A stretch of 64,000 bases of DNA from Bacteroidaceae bacterium (GTDB taxonomy: Bacteria > Bacteroidota > Bacteroidia > Bacteroidales > Bacteroidaceae), in contig JAFSAT010000024.1 of the NCBI GenBank assembly GCA_017442185.1, positions 124,001-188,000 on the forward strand. The letters run 5' to 3'. This document shows, piece by piece, positions 28,145-34,558 of this stretch. The translations under genes were made by a program, and so were the position numbers. The notes below the pieces were generated by a model. The model did not search any database, was not told the DNA's origin, and saw only the letters and a program-made list of their open reading frames with translations. Every line of letters begins with the position of its first letter. Position 1 is the stretch's first letter.

Positions 28145-28786
28145 ATGGAATCTGTTGCTTTTATACAGTGGTGTCTCGATCATCTGAACTATTGGACAAT
28201 CACTATTTTAATGACTATCGAGAGTTCTTTTATTCCTTTCCCCTCTGAGGTGGTGGTGCCTCCGGCTGCATACAAGGCGGCTGTAACGGGTGAGATGAAT
28301 GTGGTGCTTGTGGTGCTCTTCGCCACATTGGGTGCAAATTTTGGTGCGCTCATCAACTATTATCTTGCAAAATGGCTGGGTCGTCCTATTGTTTACAAAT
28401 TTGCAAACAGTCGTTTCGGGCATATCTGTCTGATAGATGAGGCCAAGGTGCAGCGTGCCGAGGAGTATTTTGACAAACATGGAGCGCTTTCAACCTTTAT
28501 AGGTCGATTGATACCTGCCGTGCGTCAACTTATCTCAATACCTGCAGGACTTGCGCGTATGAGTATCGGCAAGTTCTTGATATATACCACGCTGGGTGCC
28601 GGTATATGGAATGTGGTGCTTGCAACCATCGGTTATTATCTCTCCACCGTACCGGGTATTGAAACCGAGGAGCAACTTATTGCCAAAGTAACGGAATACA
28701 GCCACGAACTTGGATATATATTTATCGCAGTGGGTGTGTTCATTGTGGGTTACCTCATATATCAAGGAACAAGAAAAGGGAAATAA
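28145..28786 (+). CDS. DedA family membrane protein
   Basis: A 213-residue inner-membrane protein. SSFIPFPSEVVVPPAAY (about residues 28-44) and GRLIPAVRQLISIPAGLARM (about 120-139) are the two signature segments of DedA/VTT proteins, which act as lipid scramblases/flippases (recycling undecaprenyl phosphate or phosphatidylethanolamine in studied cases). The two re-entrant motifs and about four to five helices are all visible and the length is typical. It lies downstream of the ATPase-CNNM pair with a 62-base gap and no terminator in between, and a clear hairpin follows. The family call is firm; which lipid it moves is unknown. Confidence 0.9.
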   Translation: MESVAFIQWCLDHLNYWTITILMTIESSFIPFPSEVVVPPAAYKAAVTGEMNVVLVVLFATLGANFGALINYYLAKWLGRPIVYKFANSRFGHICLIDEAKVQRAEEYFDKHGALSTFIGRLIPAVRQLISIPAGLARMSIGKFLIYTTLGAGIWNVVLATIGYYLSTVPGIETEEQLIAKVTEYSHELGYIFIAVGVFIVGYLIYQGTRKGK

Positions 28787-28819
28787 GAGTATAAAAAAAG
28801 AAACTTTTTATATAATTTT

Positions 28820-28864
28820 AAAGTGAACCTCAAAGTTTGGACAAAAAACTTTGGGGTTCACTTT
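28820..28864 (+). terminator. Terminator after dedA
   Basis: AAAGTGAACC-T-CAAAGTTT pairs with AAACTTTG-G-GGTTCACTTT (18 bp with one mismatch) around 7 bases. It may serve the whole ATPase-CNNM-DedA unit. From 28865 to about 29060 the sequence is AT-rich with nothing further recognised. Confidence 0.75.
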
Positions 28865-29067
28865 ATTTCAAGCAGTTTCTTTTTTTCTGTTACCATCGCA
28901 ATATGCCTTTTAAAGAATAAACAGACATAGTTATTCTGCTCTGTAAAAAACAGACGACGAAAAAATGAAAAACTTCTAAAATGTATACATAAATCCTCTT
29001 TTAAGTGAAATTTTATTTGAAGTTTTGATAGAAAAGTGATTTTTTGATAATTTTTTTCTTTGATTTC

Positions 29068-29099
29068 TTTGCAGTGCTGAAAAAAAAACATTACTTTCG
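29068..29099 (+). promoter_or_regulatory. Promoter of the ilv operon
   Basis: TTTG (29068-29071), 20 bases, TACTTTCG (29092-29099), a TAnnTTTG box with C for T. Transcription would start at about 29105, 15 bases before the leader peptide ATG. Confidence 0.65.
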
Positions 29100-29120
29100 C
29101 GAAGTAATAATAAATGGAAT

Positions 29121-29186
29121 ATGTGCAGGCAGCATTTAACTTCACAAAGTATTATAAATATTGTGATTGTCGTCCTATCCGATTAA
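29121..29186 (+). CDS. ilv leader peptide, 21 residues
   Basis: ATG at 29121, TAA at 29184-29186. The peptide contains IINIVIVVL (codons 11-19), eight of nine codons for isoleucine, valine or leucine, the three end products of the operon that follows. This is the classic make-up of a branched-chain amino acid attenuator leader: a ribosome starved of any of the three would stall here. The reading frame lies just after a good promoter and 42 bases before a terminator, with a competing RNA pairing in between. An overlapping frame from 29114 gives a 26-residue peptide without such enrichment. Chance occurrence of this run of codons is unlikely, but translation has not been shown. Confidence 0.8.
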   Translation: MCRQHLTSQSIINIVIVVLSD

Positions 29187-29261
29187 TGGGATGAGATTGG
29201 CTGTGTAATATATAAATAAAATCAAGGTGCCTTTCTCAATGTTTCGAGGAGGGCGTTTTTT
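29187..29261 (+). promoter_or_regulatory. Attenuator: antiterminator and terminator before ilvD
   Basis: Terminator: TGCCTTTCTC (29228-29237) pairs with GAGGAGGGCG (29246-29255, three G-U pairs), followed by a run of six T (29256-29261), 25 bases before the ilvD ATG. Antiterminator: TGAGA-TT-GGC (29192-29201) can pair with GCC-TT-TCTCA (29229-29238), which includes nearly the whole left arm of the terminator, so the two folds exclude each other. A ribosome stalled on the Ile/Val/Leu codons would leave 29192-29201 free and allow read-through into ilvD. Confidence 0.75.
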
Positions 29262-29286
29262 ATTGTTTGAGAATATTATTTGAATT

Positions 29287-31089
29287 ATGAAAATAAAGTT
29301 AAGAAGTGCACAATGTACCGAAGGGCGCCGTATGGCCGGAGCACGCGCTCTTTGGATTGCCAACGGCATGAAACGCGAAATGTTCGGCAAGCCTATCATA
29401 GGTATTGCAAACTCTTTTACGCAGCTTGTGCCCGGACATACGCATCTGCATGAAGCAGGCCAGATAGTGAAGCAAGAGATTGAGAAGCTCGGTTGCTATG
29501 CAGCCGAATTTAATACAATAGCAATTGACGACGGTATTGCCATGGGGCACGATGGAATGCTCTATTCGTTGCCGTCGCGCGATATTATTGCCGACAGCGT
29601 GGAGTATATGTGCAATGCACACAAAGTGGATGCACTTGTTTGTATATCCAACTGCGACAAGATTACCCCGGGAATGTTAATGGCGACAATGCGTTTGAAT
29701 ATACCCACAGTGTTTGTCTCCGGCGGCCCGATGGAAAAAGGCACATTCAAAGGCGAGAACCTCGACCTTATCTCGGCAATGGTGAAAGCGGCCGATACTT
29801 CTGTGAGCGATGAAGAACTAGCCGAGGTTGAAAAGCGTTCATGCCCCGGATGCGGATGCTGCTCGGGAATGTTTACCGCAAATTCCATGAATTCGCTAAC
29901 CGAAGCAATAGGACTGTCACTCCCCGGCAACGGCACAATTCTTGCAACCCACGTAAATCGTGTGCAACTGCTCAAGGATGCCGCAAAGCAGATTGTCGCC
30001 AATGCAATGAAATATTACGAAGAGGGCGACGAGAGTGTGCTTCCGCTCAGTATAGCAGTGCGTGGAGCATTCCTCAATGCAATGACGCTGGATATAGCCA
30101 TGGGCGGCTCCACAAATACGATACTTCACCTGCTTGCCGTGGCGCAAGAGGCCGGAGTAGACTTTAAAATGGAGGATATCGACAAACTGAGCCGTTCGGT
30201 TCCCTGCTTGTGCAAACTGGCTCCCAACAGCGCAAAATACAGCGTGCAGGATTGCGGTCGTGCAGGAGGCATAATAGGCATAATGGCAGAACTTGCAAAA
30301 GGCGGATTGCTCGACACCTCCCTCAAACGTGTTAACGGTGCCACCCTTGCCGAAGATATTGAGAAATACAGTATAACAGGAGCAGCAATAGATGCCGAGG
30401 CAAAGCGTATATACAGCACAGCTCCCGCAAACGTTTTTTGTAATCGAATGGGAGCACAGAGCGAGGTCTATGAGACACTCGATTGCGACCGCGAACAAGG
30501 CTGCATACGCGACCTTGAGCACGCCTACACAAAGGATGGAGGTCTTGCCATTCTATTTGGCAATATAGCAAAAGATGGTTGCGTGGTAAAAACAGCCGGA
30601 GTAGACGAGAGTATCTGGAAATTCACAGGCAAGGCAAAAGTGTTCGATTCACAAGATGCTGCGGTCGAGGGTATTCTCAACGGCAGCGTGCAGGCCGGCG
30701 ATGTGGTGGTTATTGTATATGAGGGTCCAAAAGGCGGCCCCGGTATGCAAGAGATGTTATACCCCACGTCATATATAAAATCGCGTCACTTAGGCAAAGA
30801 GTGCGCTCTTATCACCGACGGACGTTTCAGTGGCGGAACATCAGGGTTGAGCATAGGACATATATCACCCGAAGCAGCCGCCGGAGGTAACATAGGCAAG
30901 CTGCGCGATGGCGATATTATTGAGATAGATATTCCCAATCGCAGTATAAATGTAAGGCTCAGCGATGAAGAACTTGCCTCGCGCGAGATGTTCCCGCTGA
31001 CACGTGAACGAGTAGTCTCCAAGAGCCTCAGAGCATACGCCAATATGGTAAGCTCTGCCGATAAAGGCGGTGTGAGAATTATAGAGTAA
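29287..31089 (+). CDS. ilvD: Dihydroxy-acid dehydratase
   Basis: A 600-residue enzyme that dehydrates dihydroxy-acids to the keto acids of valine, leucine and isoleucine; it carries an iron-sulfur cluster. [15 protein letters not shown] (about residues 118-132) and [17 protein letters not shown] (about 190-206) hold the cluster cysteines, and the C-terminal [13 protein letters not shown] and [21 protein letters not shown] are diagnostic. The length fits the long-form, E. coli-like IlvD. It is the first structural gene after the attenuator, and ilvB begins 33 bases later. Confidence 0.97.
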
Positions 31090-31122
31090 GAACAGGTCAT
31101 ACGACACAATACAAGATAACCG

Positions 31123-32814
31123 ATGAAAGATATTATAACAGGAGCAGAAGCACTGATGCGTGCTCTGATGAACGAAGGAGTAGATACCATATTCGGCTAT
31201 CCGGGTGGTTCCATTATGCCGGTGTTCGATGCCATGTACGACCATAGAAGCGATTTTAATCAAGTGGTTGTACGTCACGAACAAGGTGCGGCACATGCAG
31301 CGCAAGGTTATGCCCGCACCTCGGGCAAAGTAGGCGTTTGCATTGTGACAAGCGGCCCCGGTGCCACAAACACACTTACAGGAATAAGCGATGCAATACT
31401 CGACAGCACACCTATTGTGGTGATAGCAGGACAGGTGCCATCGACAGTGTTAGGAACCGATGCTTTTCAAGAGATAGACTTGGTGGGTGTTACGCAGCCC
31501 ATCACCAAATGGAGCTACCAGATACGTCGTGCCGAAGATGTGGCATGGGCTGTTGCACGTGCATTTTATATTGCCCGCACAGGTCGTCCCGGCCCCGTGG
31601 TGCTCGACTTTACCAAGAATGCCCAAACGTCGACCGTAGCTTTTGAACCGCAACCGGTTGACCACATTCGCAGCTATGTTCCTTATCCTAAGCCGGATAT
31701 GGACGCCATAAAAGCTGCTGCCGACCTCATAAGCCGTGCACAACGCCCCTTGGCACTCGTGGGTCAGGGCGTAGAGCTTGGAGAAGCACATGAAGAGCTT
31801 AAGGCATTTCTTGAAAAGGGTAATATACCCGCAGCAAGAACACTCATGGGCTTATCGGCACTCCCAACAGATTATCCGCTCACCATGGGCATGTTGGGTA
31901 TGCACGGCAATTACAGCTGCAATGTCAATACCAACCAATGCGATGTGCTTATAGCCATAGGCATGCGATTCAGCGACCGCGTAACAGGCAATATTGCAAC
32001 ATACGCCAAGCAGGCCAAGGTTATCCATCTTGATATAGACCGCTCCGAGATTGATAAAAATGTAAAGGCAGACATTGCGGTTATCGGAGATTGCAAAGAG
32101 ACACTGCCGCTTATAACCTCTCTTATGACAGAGGGTTGCCACAAAGAGTGGATAGAGAGCTTCTCGGAATATGATGTAATAGAGAATGAAAAAGTTATAG
32201 AGAAGGCTATAAATCCAAAAGAAGGACACTTGAAGATGGGCGAAGTGGCACGCAAGGTGAGCGAGGCTACGGGCAACAGTGCAGTACTTGTTACAGATGT
32301 AGGGCAGAATCAGATGCTCTCGTGCCGATACTTTAAGTTTACGAAACCTCACAGTGTGCTGACATCAGGAGGATTGGGAACAATGGGCTACGGACTTCCG
32401 GCAGCAATAGGTGCAACCATAGGTGTCCCCGAAAGAACAGTGTGCGCATTCATGGGCGACGGAGGCTTCCAAATGAACATTCAAGAACTCGGTACCATAA
32501 TGGAACAGAAGTGTCCGGTGAAAATGATACTTCTGAATAACAACTATTTGGGAAATGTACGTCAATGGCAAGAACTGTTTTTCAATCATCGCTATTCGTG
32601 TACTCCCATGATGAACCCCGATTATAATATGATAGCTTCGGCTTATGGAATCCCCTCGCGCCTTGTTGTGGAACGCTCGGAACTTGACGATGCGATACGA
32701 GAGATGCTTGAAACACCCGGTGCATTCTTGCTGCATGTGGCTGTTGAAGAGGAGGATAATGTAATGCCTATGACCCCTCCGGGAGCAACTGTGAGCGATA
32801 TGATTTTTGAATGA
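31123..32814 (+). CDS. ilvB: Acetolactate synthase large subunit
   Basis: A 563-residue thiamine-diphosphate enzyme that joins two pyruvates, or pyruvate and 2-oxobutyrate, as the first common step to Val/Leu/Ile. TIFGYPGGSIMPVFDA (about 20-35) and the catalytic Glu in VVRHEQGAAHAAQGYAR (about 49-65) open the pyrimidine-binding domain; the central FAD-type domain follows; and MGDGGFQMNIQELGT with LLNNNYLGNVRQWQ is the TPP/Mg2+ motif (GDG...N about 30 residues later). Length and all motifs are complete. The regulatory subunit gene begins 18 bases downstream. Confidence 0.97.
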   Translation: MKDIITGAEALMRALMNEGVDTIFGYPGGSIMPVFDAMYDHRSDFNQVVVRHEQGAAHAAQGYARTSGKVGVCIVTSGPGATNTLTGISDAILDSTPIVVIAGQVPSTVLGTDAFQEIDLVGVTQPITKWSYQIRRAEDVAWAVARAFYIARTGRPGPVVLDFTKNAQTSTVAFEPQPVDHIRSYVPYPKPDMDAIKAAADLISRAQRPLALVGQGVELGEAHEELKAFLEKGNIPAARTLMGLSALPTDYPLTMGMLGMHGNYSCNVNTNQCDVLIAIGMRFSDRVTGNIATYAKQAKVIHLDIDRSEIDKNVKADIAVIGDCKETLPLITSLMTEGCHKEWIESFSEYDVIENEKVIEKAINPKEGHLKMGEVARKVSEATGNSAVLVTDVGQNQMLSCRYFKFTKPHSVLTSGGLGTMGYGLPAAIGATIGVPERTVCAFMGDGGFQMNIQELGTIMEQKCPVKMILLNNNYLGNVRQWQELFFNHRYSCTPMMNPDYNMIASAYGIPSRLVVERSELDDAIREMLETPGAFLLHVAVEEEDNVMPMTPPGATVSDMIFE

Positions 32815-32832
32815 CCTCTCAAGAGAAATTTT

Positions 32833-33381
32833 ATGGAAAAACAACTTTATACGGTGATAATATATTCGGAGAATCTTGCAGGTGTGCTCAATCAGGTAAC
32901 AGCCGAATTTACACGCAGGCAGATGAATATTGAAACGCTTAACGTATCATCATCCTCGATAGAGGGCGTGCATCGCTATACAGTATCGCTATGGAGCGAA
33001 GAGGAGGTGATAAAAAAGGTGGTTAAGCGTCTCGAAAAGAAAATAGATGTATTGCGAGCAAGCTATTATACCGAGGATGAGATTTTTGTTCAAGAGGTGG
33101 CTCTGTACAAAATATCAACACCTAAACTGCTTGCCAACAAACATATCTCAAAAATAATACGTCACAATAATGCACGTGTGATAGAGATAAATACCACATA
33201 TACGGTGGTTGAACTTACCGGCAAAACTGAGACAATAATAAAGCTCTACAAGGAATTTGTGGCAGAGGGATGTGTCTTGCAATTTGTGAAGTCGGGGCAT
33301 ATTGCTGTCACACGTGATGTAGTGGAACATCTCACCGAACAACTTTTTGACGAGGATGCGTTGAGAACTGCAACCAAATAA
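32833..33381 (+). CDS. ilvN: Acetolactate synthase small (regulatory) subunit
   Basis: A 182-residue regulatory subunit: an ACT domain (about 5-75, YTVIIYSENLAGVLNQVTAEFTRRQ is the ligand-binding loop) and a C-terminal acetolactate synthase small-subunit domain (about 85-170). It binds valine and confers feedback inhibition on the large subunit, whose gene ends 18 bases upstream. The name could equally be ilvH; length is closer to IlvH than to the short E. coli IlvN. A 127-base gap separates it from ilvC, with no terminator that I would trust. Confidence 0.94.
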   Translation: MEKQLYTVIIYSENLAGVLNQVTAEFTRRQMNIETLNVSSSSIEGVHRYTVSLWSEEEVIKKVVKRLEKKIDVLRASYYTEDEIFVQEVALYKISTPKLLANKHISKIIRHNNARVIEINTTYTVVELTGKTETIIKLYKEFVAEGCVLQFVKSGHIAVTRDVVEHLTEQLFDEDALRTATK

Positions 33382-33508
33382 GTGGCTGTTTATATTGGTT
33401 TTTCATGGTACGAAAAACATACCTTATAGAAAATGAACGAGAAAAAGGCTTCATAAATGTATATACAAAAGAATAAGTGAATTTTAAATCATTAATATAA
33501 TAATAACT

Positions 33509-34558
33509 ATGGCAGAAATGAATTTTGGCGGAGTGACAGAGAATGTAATCACTCCCAAAGAGTTTTCTTTGGAGAAAGCTCGTGAGATTTTAAAGGATGA
33601 GACAATTGCAGTGCTCGGATATGGCGTGCAAGGCCCCGGACAGGCTTGCAACCTTCGTGACAATGGCTTTAATGTGATTGTCGGACAGCGTGAGGGTAAA
33701 ACCTATGATAAGGCTGTGAGCGACGGCTGGGTTCCGGGAGAGACACTCTTCTCGCTTGAAGAGGCTGCACAAAAAGGAACCATCGTGTGTATGTTGCTCT
33801 CTGATGCTGCACAGATTGCAGTGTGGCCTAAAGTCCTTCCCTATCTTACAGCAGGCAAAGCTCTTTATTTCTCGCATGGATTTGGTATCACATGGAACGA
33901 TAGAACAGGTATCGTTCCCCCCACAGATGTAGATGTTATCATGGTTGCTCCCAAGGGTTCGGGAACCTCTCTGCGCACTATGTTCCTCGAAGGACGCGGG
34001 CTTAATTCTTCCTATGCAATCTATCAGGATGCAACAGGCAAGGCAATGGACAGAGTGTTGGCTTTCGGTATCGGAATAGGCTCGGGTTATCTGTTTGAAA
34101 CTACTTTCCAACGTGAGGCTACAAGTGACCTTACCGGTGAGCGCGGCTCTCTCATGGGCGCTATACAGGGATTGCTGCTTGCGCAATACGAGGTGTTGCG
34201 CGAGAATGGACACACTCCCTCAGAGGCATTCAACGAGACGGTAGAGGAACTTACTCAATCGCTTATGCCGCTGTTTGCAGCAAAGGGTATGGATTGGATG
34301 TATGCAAACTGCTCGACAACCGCTCAGCGTGGTGCCCTCGATTGGATGGGGCCTTTCCACGATGCCATCAAACCTGTAATGTATAAGTTATATGAGTCGG
34401 TAAAGAGTGGTAACGAAGCACAAATTTCGATAGACTCTAATTCTCAGCCCGATTATCGCGAAAAATTGAATGATGAGCTTAAGGCTTTGCACGAGAGTGA
34501 GATGTGGCGCACAGCCGAGGTTGTTCGCAGGCTGAGACCCGAGAATGAGGTTAAGTAA
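33509..34558 (+). CDS. ilvC: Ketol-acid reductoisomerase
   Basis: A 349-residue enzyme that rearranges and reduces acetolactate to the dihydroxy-acid used by IlvD, with NAD(P)H. The Rossmann part has VLGYGVQGPGQACNLRDNG (about 32-50); the metal- and substrate-binding helical part has FETTFQREATSDLTGERGSL (about 197-216) and EELTQSLMPLFAAKGMDWMY (about 245-264). The cofactor-specifying loop reads VGQREGKTYDKA instead of the Arg/Ser-rich loop of the common NADPH enzymes. Length is between class I (about 330) and class II. It is the last gene of the ilv cluster and is followed by a terminator. Confidence 0.95.
   Translation: MAEMNFGGVTENVITPKEFSLEKAREILKDETIAVLGYGVQGPGQACNLRDNGFNVIVGQREGKTYDKAVSDGWVPGETLFSLEEAAQKGTIVCMLLSDAAQIAVWPKVLPYLTAGKALYFSHGFGITWNDRTGIVPPTDVDVIMVAPKGSGTSLRTMFLEGRGLNSSYAIYQDATGKAMDRVLAFGIGIGSGYLFETTFQREATSDLTGERGSLMGAIQGLLLAQYEVLRENGHTPSEAFNETVEELTQSLMPLFAAKGMDWMYANCSTTAQRGALDWMGPFHDAIKPVMYKLYESVKSGNEAQISIDSNSQPDYREKLNDELKALHESEMWRTAEVVRRLRPENEVK

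Follow-up and report, generated by a model that had tools for sequence, protein, structure and literature searches.

A putative ribosome-mediated attenuator with an Ile/Val/Leu-rich leader peptide upstream of ilvDBNC, and its recurrence in Bacteroidales

What controls the branched-chain amino acid genes of this Bacteroidaceae bacterium, and is the short region in front of ilvD a switch that is read by the ribosome? The window (the whole stretch of DNA that was analysed, 64,000 nucleotides) comes from a genome assembly of 2.36 Mb in 50 contigs. It contains ilvD, ilvB, ilvN and ilvC in an operon-like row from 29287 to 34558, encoding four Ile/Val enzymes; a VTT-domain gene (28145-28786) precedes the candidate regulatory region. 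Ribosome-mediated attenuation of ilv operons is textbook knowledge in enterobacteria, and the initial annotation read the region in front of ilvD in that way. Computation supports this reading through the recurrence of the element, its competing strands and its folding at successive ribosome positions, and we consider it very probable that the element controls the ilvDBNC operon by ribosome-mediated attenuation of transcription. The mechanism would be ordinary ribosome-mediated attenuation, that is, of a known kind, without an Rfam match in this window. The features are:

28819-28865, forward strand: strong terminator-like hairpin of 20 pairs, 3′ of the VTT-domain gene
29068-29099, forward strand: promoter-like pair seen in the sequence, TTTG at 29068-29071 and TACTTTCG at 29092-29099
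29121-29186, forward strand: predicted leader peptide MCRQHLTSQSIINIVIVVLSD, 21 sense codons (ATG at 29121, TAA at 29184-29186)
29170-29178, forward strand: strand 1, within Val-Val-Leu-Ser codons; its partner is 29186-29194 (pause/protector hairpin)
29186-29201, forward strand: strand 2, of which 29186-29194 pairs with strand 1 and 29192-29201 with strand 3
29229-29238, forward strand: strand 3, common to antiterminator and terminator
29224-29261, forward strand: predicted intrinsic terminator, strand 4 core 29246-29254, U-tract 29256-29261
29287-31089, forward strand: ilvD, dihydroxy-acid dehydratase (Pfam; NCBIfam TIGR00110, NF009103)
31123-32814, forward strand: ilvB, acetolactate synthase large subunit (Pfam; NCBIfam TIGR00118)
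32833-33381, forward strand: ilvN/H, acetolactate synthase small subunit (Pfam; NCBIfam TIGR00119)
33509-34558, forward strand: ilvC, ketol-acid reductoisomerase (Pfam; NCBIfam TIGR00465)

The four parts that the initial annotation listed are all present, but its list omitted a fifth, the pause/protector hairpin. A promoter-like pair lies exactly where it placed the promoter (29068-29099), and the TACTTTCG box is one base off TAnnTTTG, which we take to be the Bacteroides consensus. The leader carries, as claimed, IINIVIVVL at codons 11-19 (the regulatory codons), with Ile, Leu or Val in 8 of 10 codons. The pause/protector hairpin (29170-29178 with 29186-29194) has 9 pairs; its 5′ arm consists of leader codons, and it has bases in common with the antiterminator. 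The antiterminator, described earlier as 29192-29201 paired with 29229-29238, is an imperfect helix in which 8 of the 10 positions pair, with two internal U.U positions. For the terminator, earlier given as 29228-29261 with a T-run, we find a stem at 29224-29259 (14 pairs, 5 of them G-C) and six T at 29256-29261 (the first T counted in the stem), and strand 3 does serve both helices, as the initial annotation held. The z-score of the whole-leader fold, taken alone, is modest (-2.3). By eye we also observed an overlapping ORF in another frame, MEYVQAAFNFTKYYKYCDCRPIRLMG (29114-29194), with a stop within strand 2 and an ATG at 29114 that is closer to the promoter; this ATG has an A-rich context and its frame lacks an Ile/Leu/Val run (again by eye). 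It could compete for initiation with the leader ATG; the comparative evidence favours 29121 as the probable start.

In the proposed mechanism, RNA polymerase would start a few bases after 29099 and a ribosome would initiate at the A-rich, Shine-Dalgarno-less leader AUG at 29121. When Ile-, Val- or Leu-charged tRNAs run short, the ribosome would stall at codons 11-19 and cover strand 1; strand 2 would then pair with strand 3 ahead of the synthesis of strand 4, and transcription would read through into ilvD. When amino acids are plentiful, the ribosome would reach the stop codon and cover strand 2; with no ribosome, strand 1 would trap strand 2. With strand 2 covered or trapped, strand 3 would pair with strand 4 and transcription would end near 29261. 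Computation shows the parts themselves, that they are conserved and mutually exclusive, and that 2:3 pairing varies with the position of the ribosome; we infer where transcription starts, that the leader is translated, that termination really occurs and that amino-acid supply governs it.

The hairpin at 29224-29259 might instead be unregulated, either simply ending an upstream transcript or forming constitutively in the 5′ region. In five related loci (L005, L006, L121, L126 and L130, by eye), a similar hairpin does follow the promoter at once, and neither a leader nor an antiterminator is apparent; there it is a possible remnant of a lost attenuator. The upstream gene of the window, however, has its own strong hairpin at 28819-28865 (the region 28800-28880 folds with a z-score of -7.6, and 0 of 200 shuffles are equally stable), which probably divides the VTT-domain gene from the ilv transcript, and the competing strand 2 is kept among relatives, as set out below. 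We regard a plain terminator as extremely improbable.

A single locus could carry such an arrangement by chance, and its recurrence was measured on 255 ilvD loci, 254 with the IlvD N-terminus, 245 distinct and 240 with at least 200 nt upstream. The detector required two things in order: an ORF of 10-36 codons starting with ATG, in which 7 or more of 10 codons specify Ile, Leu or Val, and then a terminator. Leader plus terminator was found in 107 of the 240 distinct upstream regions, compared with 23 of 4,800 dinucleotide-preserving shuffles; the runs of Ile, Leu and Val codons that the attenuation reading predicts for related ilvD genes are thus present, and they recur across families. By the leader alone (in both groups with the leader stop at most 200 nt from ilvD), 20 of the 42 congeners scanned and 36 of 98 loci in other genera of the family are positive, the leader being absent or sub-threshold in the other 22 and 62. 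The leader alone is also found in 19 of 26 loci in other families of the order, and in 40 of 64 loci with Bacteroidota-type record titles (36 of the 40 with a terminator); these taxonomic groups overlap, and metagenome-bin titles were accepted as given. The 7-of-10 threshold loses some likely leaders (for example, L131, L132 and L135, at 6/10), and the Bacteroides graminisolvens locus (L024) lacks, by this detector, a terminator with a U-tract. Ten IlvD homologues in records with titles outside Bacteroidota (Desulfobulbaceae, Spirochaetaceae, etc.) reach at most 5/10 Ile/Leu/Val; a locus in a record titled Fibrobacter (L047), also at 5/10, stands outside both the Bacteroidota and the control counts. 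A class-level ilvD search gave 7 matches in 197 genomes, all within the order, and since its strict cut-off excludes other IlvD types, it says nothing on other orders. From these counts the attenuator appears to be widespread in its order; Phocaeicola faecalis (L014) and Odoribacter laneus (L067) are examples of cultured organisms with the element.

The amino acids encoded by the leaders follow the pathway of the gene downstream. Set to His codons, the detector finds 21 of 30 hisG upstream regions (30 of 43 matches were used) versus 1 of 240 for ilvD; set to Ile/Leu/Val, it finds 107 of 240 for ilvD, 9 of 29 for leuA and 0 of 30 for hisG. The leuA set comprises the 29 usable of 30 regions fetched, from 34 matches over the family cut-off (one without an open frame was dropped). 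The double contrast between hisG and ilvD is, in our judgement, the strongest single argument that these ORFs are leaders read for their codons. In the same genome as the window, the region before hisG (L288, 1185-1311, on G000:C12) contains the putative His leader MKVTLLHHHRHLHSIFL and then a terminator-like hairpin. It resembles the ilvD leader in being short, in carrying codons of its pathway and in the hairpin that follows, and differs in its His codons and in the hairpin sequence. Before leuA, Leu/Ile/Val-rich leader ORFs were seen in L289, L290, L292, L296, L302, L303, L310, L312 and L313, and the leuA gene of the window's own genome (L305) has, by eye, just a promoter-like box and a short hairpin.

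These results also bear on whether ilvD could be controlled by a riboswitch, a T-box or a protein-binding leader, with the small ORF incidental. A structured leader with a terminator is riboswitch anatomy too. Nevertheless, the window has no Rfam match at gathering scores, to T-box or to other cis-regulatory families, and in a relaxed scan just a chance-level SNORD102 match (E 4.4) reaches to the promoter, the rest lying at the upstream hairpin. Furthermore, RNA conservation is low outside the competing strands and the leader end, yet the Ile/Leu/Val run recurs, with a His run in its place at hisG. We therefore consider control of this type highly improbable.

Attenuation also predicts that strands 2 and 3 be kept as partners. 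In each of the 107 loci, we asked how well strand 3 pairs with the stretch between the leader end and the terminator, relative to 200 shuffles. The antiterminator duplex outperforms 198 or more of the shuffles in 61 loci and 190 or more in 90, with a median z of -3. In the window it beats 195, with 5 of 200 as good. The distance from the start of strand 2 to the downstream end of the ORF is exactly 4 nt in 44 of the 107 loci. When 19 of the 20 leaders of the genus were aligned (L098 was left out), 98.8% of positions were paired for strands 1 and 2, 79.6% for 2 and 3 and 100% for 3 and 4 (a terminator core of 9 pairs), and the strand 3 core GCCTTTCTC is invariant in these 19 congeners. A second alignment covered Bacteroides-type loci, 30 in number after three of the 33 had been set aside for want of a detected terminator; here pairing is 96.0% for strands 2 and 3 and 94.5% for strands 3 and 4. 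The two mutually exclusive stems are thus kept.

Double changes of the compensatory kind, which the initial annotation also expected, appear only at the level of the order. Among the 19 congeners, no pair in any helix is changed on both sides; among the 30 Bacteroides-type loci, double changes number none in 2:3 and one in 3:4, not above shuffles. Strands 2 and 3 each have two partners, which would leave little room for compensation. RNAalifold on the Bacteroides-type alignment returns the terminator and a 4-pair helix, and no strand 1 hairpin of the window's kind. Across the order, paired double changes are present in a gapless alignment, chiefly in the outer pairs of 2:3, and true strand 2 and strand 3 partners pair at 9.48 of 12 positions versus 9.04 ± 0.07 for shuffled partners (0 of 2,000 as good; 97 distinct triples). 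In this test each strand was aligned gapless to a consensus, which some rows fit poorly.

We folded the RNA that a ribosome leaves uncovered on its 3′ side, stopping short of strand 4, and found that 2:3 pairing depends on the position of the ribosome. In the window, the probability of 2:3 is 0.10 without a ribosome (when the strand 1 hairpin has 0.88) and 0.81-0.97 with the P site at codons 9-19; codon 20 still gives 0.87, and with the P site at codon 21 or the stop the value drops to 0.36, which is low, not zero. Averaged over 105 loci, the probability is 0.91 for the most favourable stall codon and 0.07 with the ribosome at the stop, and 99 loci fall on the expected sides of 0.5 (a stall frees the antiterminator, the stop blocks it), the six others being L004, L009, L030, L055, L074 and L136; the search region for strand 2 had been defined relative to the leader stop, and masking at the stop is therefore partly built into this result. 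Two loci, L147 and L221, were dropped from the folding, promoter and selection counts since the leader picked was too far upstream (by eye, L221 has a plausible leader). At full length, including strand 4, the terminator is favoured at every ribosome position tested in the window, the stalled ones too; since it is the equilibrium form, antitermination must be kinetic, with trapping assumed.

Without a ribosome, the loci divide. The probability of 2:3 is below 0.5 in 48 of 105. In 16 of the 20 leaders of the genus (L001 and L085-L099) it is at most 0.19, and in the other four it ranges over 0.17-0.83 (L004 0.51, L138 0.25, L143 0.17, L148 0.83); it is above 0.7 in 16 of 29 Bacteroides-type loci (L173, one of the 30 aligned, scores 6/10 and so lies outside the folding set). 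Without translation, transcription would accordingly stop at the terminator in the window and continue past it in many of the relatives, though not in all.

Promoter-like boxes also recur before the 105 leaders. An exact TAnnTTTG box occurs in the roughly 110 nt that precede the leader ATG in 91 of them, compared with 8.5% expected from mononucleotide shuffles, at a median of 30 nt from the ATG; in 86 of these 91, a second element lies 18-24 nt upstream of the box and agrees with TTTG at three or four positions, a figure without a chance control. The window's own box, a one-mismatch variant, is among the 14 loci with no exact match. A simple pattern for Shine-Dalgarno-like sites 4-20 nt upstream finds none before the 105 leaders and 6 before the 105 ilvD genes, and the 20 nt preceding the leaders are 49% A. 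Selection was estimated from pairs of equal-length leaders that differ by no more than 35%, using only codons with a single change or none: pN/pS comes to 0.32 at Ile/Leu/Val codons and 0.49 elsewhere, over 79 pairs that are not independent, and 0.68 for whole leaders among congeners with every change counted. The peptide thus appears to be under moderate purifying selection. Replacements of one of Ile, Leu and Val by another make up 56 of 143 non-synonymous changes versus 47.4 expected, a slight excess, so that class conservation between close pairs is not demonstrated by replacements.

Could the leader act mainly on translation of ilvD, or encode a peptide that acts in trans? A trans-acting leader peptide, peTrpL, is indeed known. 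Against this, the predicted terminator with its U-tract sits between the leader and ilvD, the first structural gene (as read from sequence), and the peptide differs widely between clades beyond its Ile/Leu/Val run; we give such a role hardly any credence, and retain transcriptional attenuation.

The enterobacterial ilvGMEDA and ilvBN attenuators (with IlvL and IvbL), likened here in their general plan, are similar in their Ile/Val/Leu-rich leader, their alternative antiterminator and terminator and the ilv genes downstream; here, by contrast, there is no Shine-Dalgarno-like site, the promoter boxes are of Bacteroidota type and ilvD comes first. The Bacteroid-trp RNA (RF01692), which we take to be linked to trp attenuation, has no covariance-model match in the window nor, under strict filters, in its own genome; with these filters, 4 of 79 Bacteroidales genomes gave a match, which exceeded the cut-off in 3. 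The genome-wide searches, with this model and with our own, used stricter filters, by which weak matches are lost. Bacteroid-trp is listed as a cis-regulatory RNA motif of Bacteroidetes (PMC2864571). Main-text portions of two other studies of the phylum suggest leader-peptide attenuation: in Flavobacterium psychrophilum, there are clues for it upstream of amino-acid operons, with a conserved 5′ element before hisG (PMC9723704), and 5′ UTRs of B. thetaiotaomicron contain sORFs reminiscent of leader peptides (PMC7366714); in those portions, no ilv leader is named and no alternative strands are shown. The word "leader" is absent from the main text of a paper on his genes of Bacteroidota (PMC8305728). 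Such leaders may already be predicted in a study that compared attenuation across bacteria (Lopatovskaya et al., 2010, as cited in PMC4833913). The open-licence literature, in the portions available, yielded no description of an ilv leader in Bacteroidales; this fits the statement of the initial annotation that such leaders are much less studied there, although Bacteroid-trp and F. psychrophilum provide precedents in the phylum.

The element would add a proposed regulatory layer to branched-chain amino-acid synthesis in Bacteroidales, and it flags leader ORFs below the usual gene-caller length upstream of ilv, his and leu operons. The switch would work only if the ribosome closely follows the polymerase, so the element tests transcription-translation coupling, and it offers a conserved test case for this and for initiation on short leaders in a phylum lacking Shine-Dalgarno initiation.

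Not all relatives keep the element. In L008, L013, L015, L016 and L021 the promoter is directly before ilvD (by eye); the congeners L107 and L112 have decayed leaders, and L111 and L149 have a short Val run only. A covariance model built from the 19 aligned leaders finds matches, partly weak ones, in 34 of 44 congeners; several have a second site (those in G011, G012 and G042 were left out of the locus comparison). Five second sites (L345, L346, L348, L351 and L352) precede an ilvB homologue 56-58% identical to that of the window, with a leader such as MYNSLYILNNLSLVVLCR that by eye resembles the ilvD leader of the Alistipes-titled L053 and L061. In these same five genomes the native ilvD leader is non-canonical (L139, L113, L144, L146 and L149), and the second ilvB operon may have been transferred together with its Alistipes-like switch.

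A broader proposal is that leader-peptide attenuation is an old, general control of ilv, his and leu in Bacteroidales, operating without Shine-Dalgarno sites and in two wirings (default off in most leaders of the genus, 16 of 20; default on in 16 of 29 Bacteroides-type loci, which would thereby sense translation itself), the native leader having decayed in some congeners that have a second ilvB with an Alistipes-like attenuator. We put this forward tentatively, as possible but rather doubtful in its full extent.

Two further covariance-model matches in congeners (L347 and L349) have no ilvB, ilvN or ilvD match within the locus. In addition, one congener assembly (G035, with 7% contamination) contains two ilvD copies, each 89% identical to that of the window, and one of the two may be foreign.
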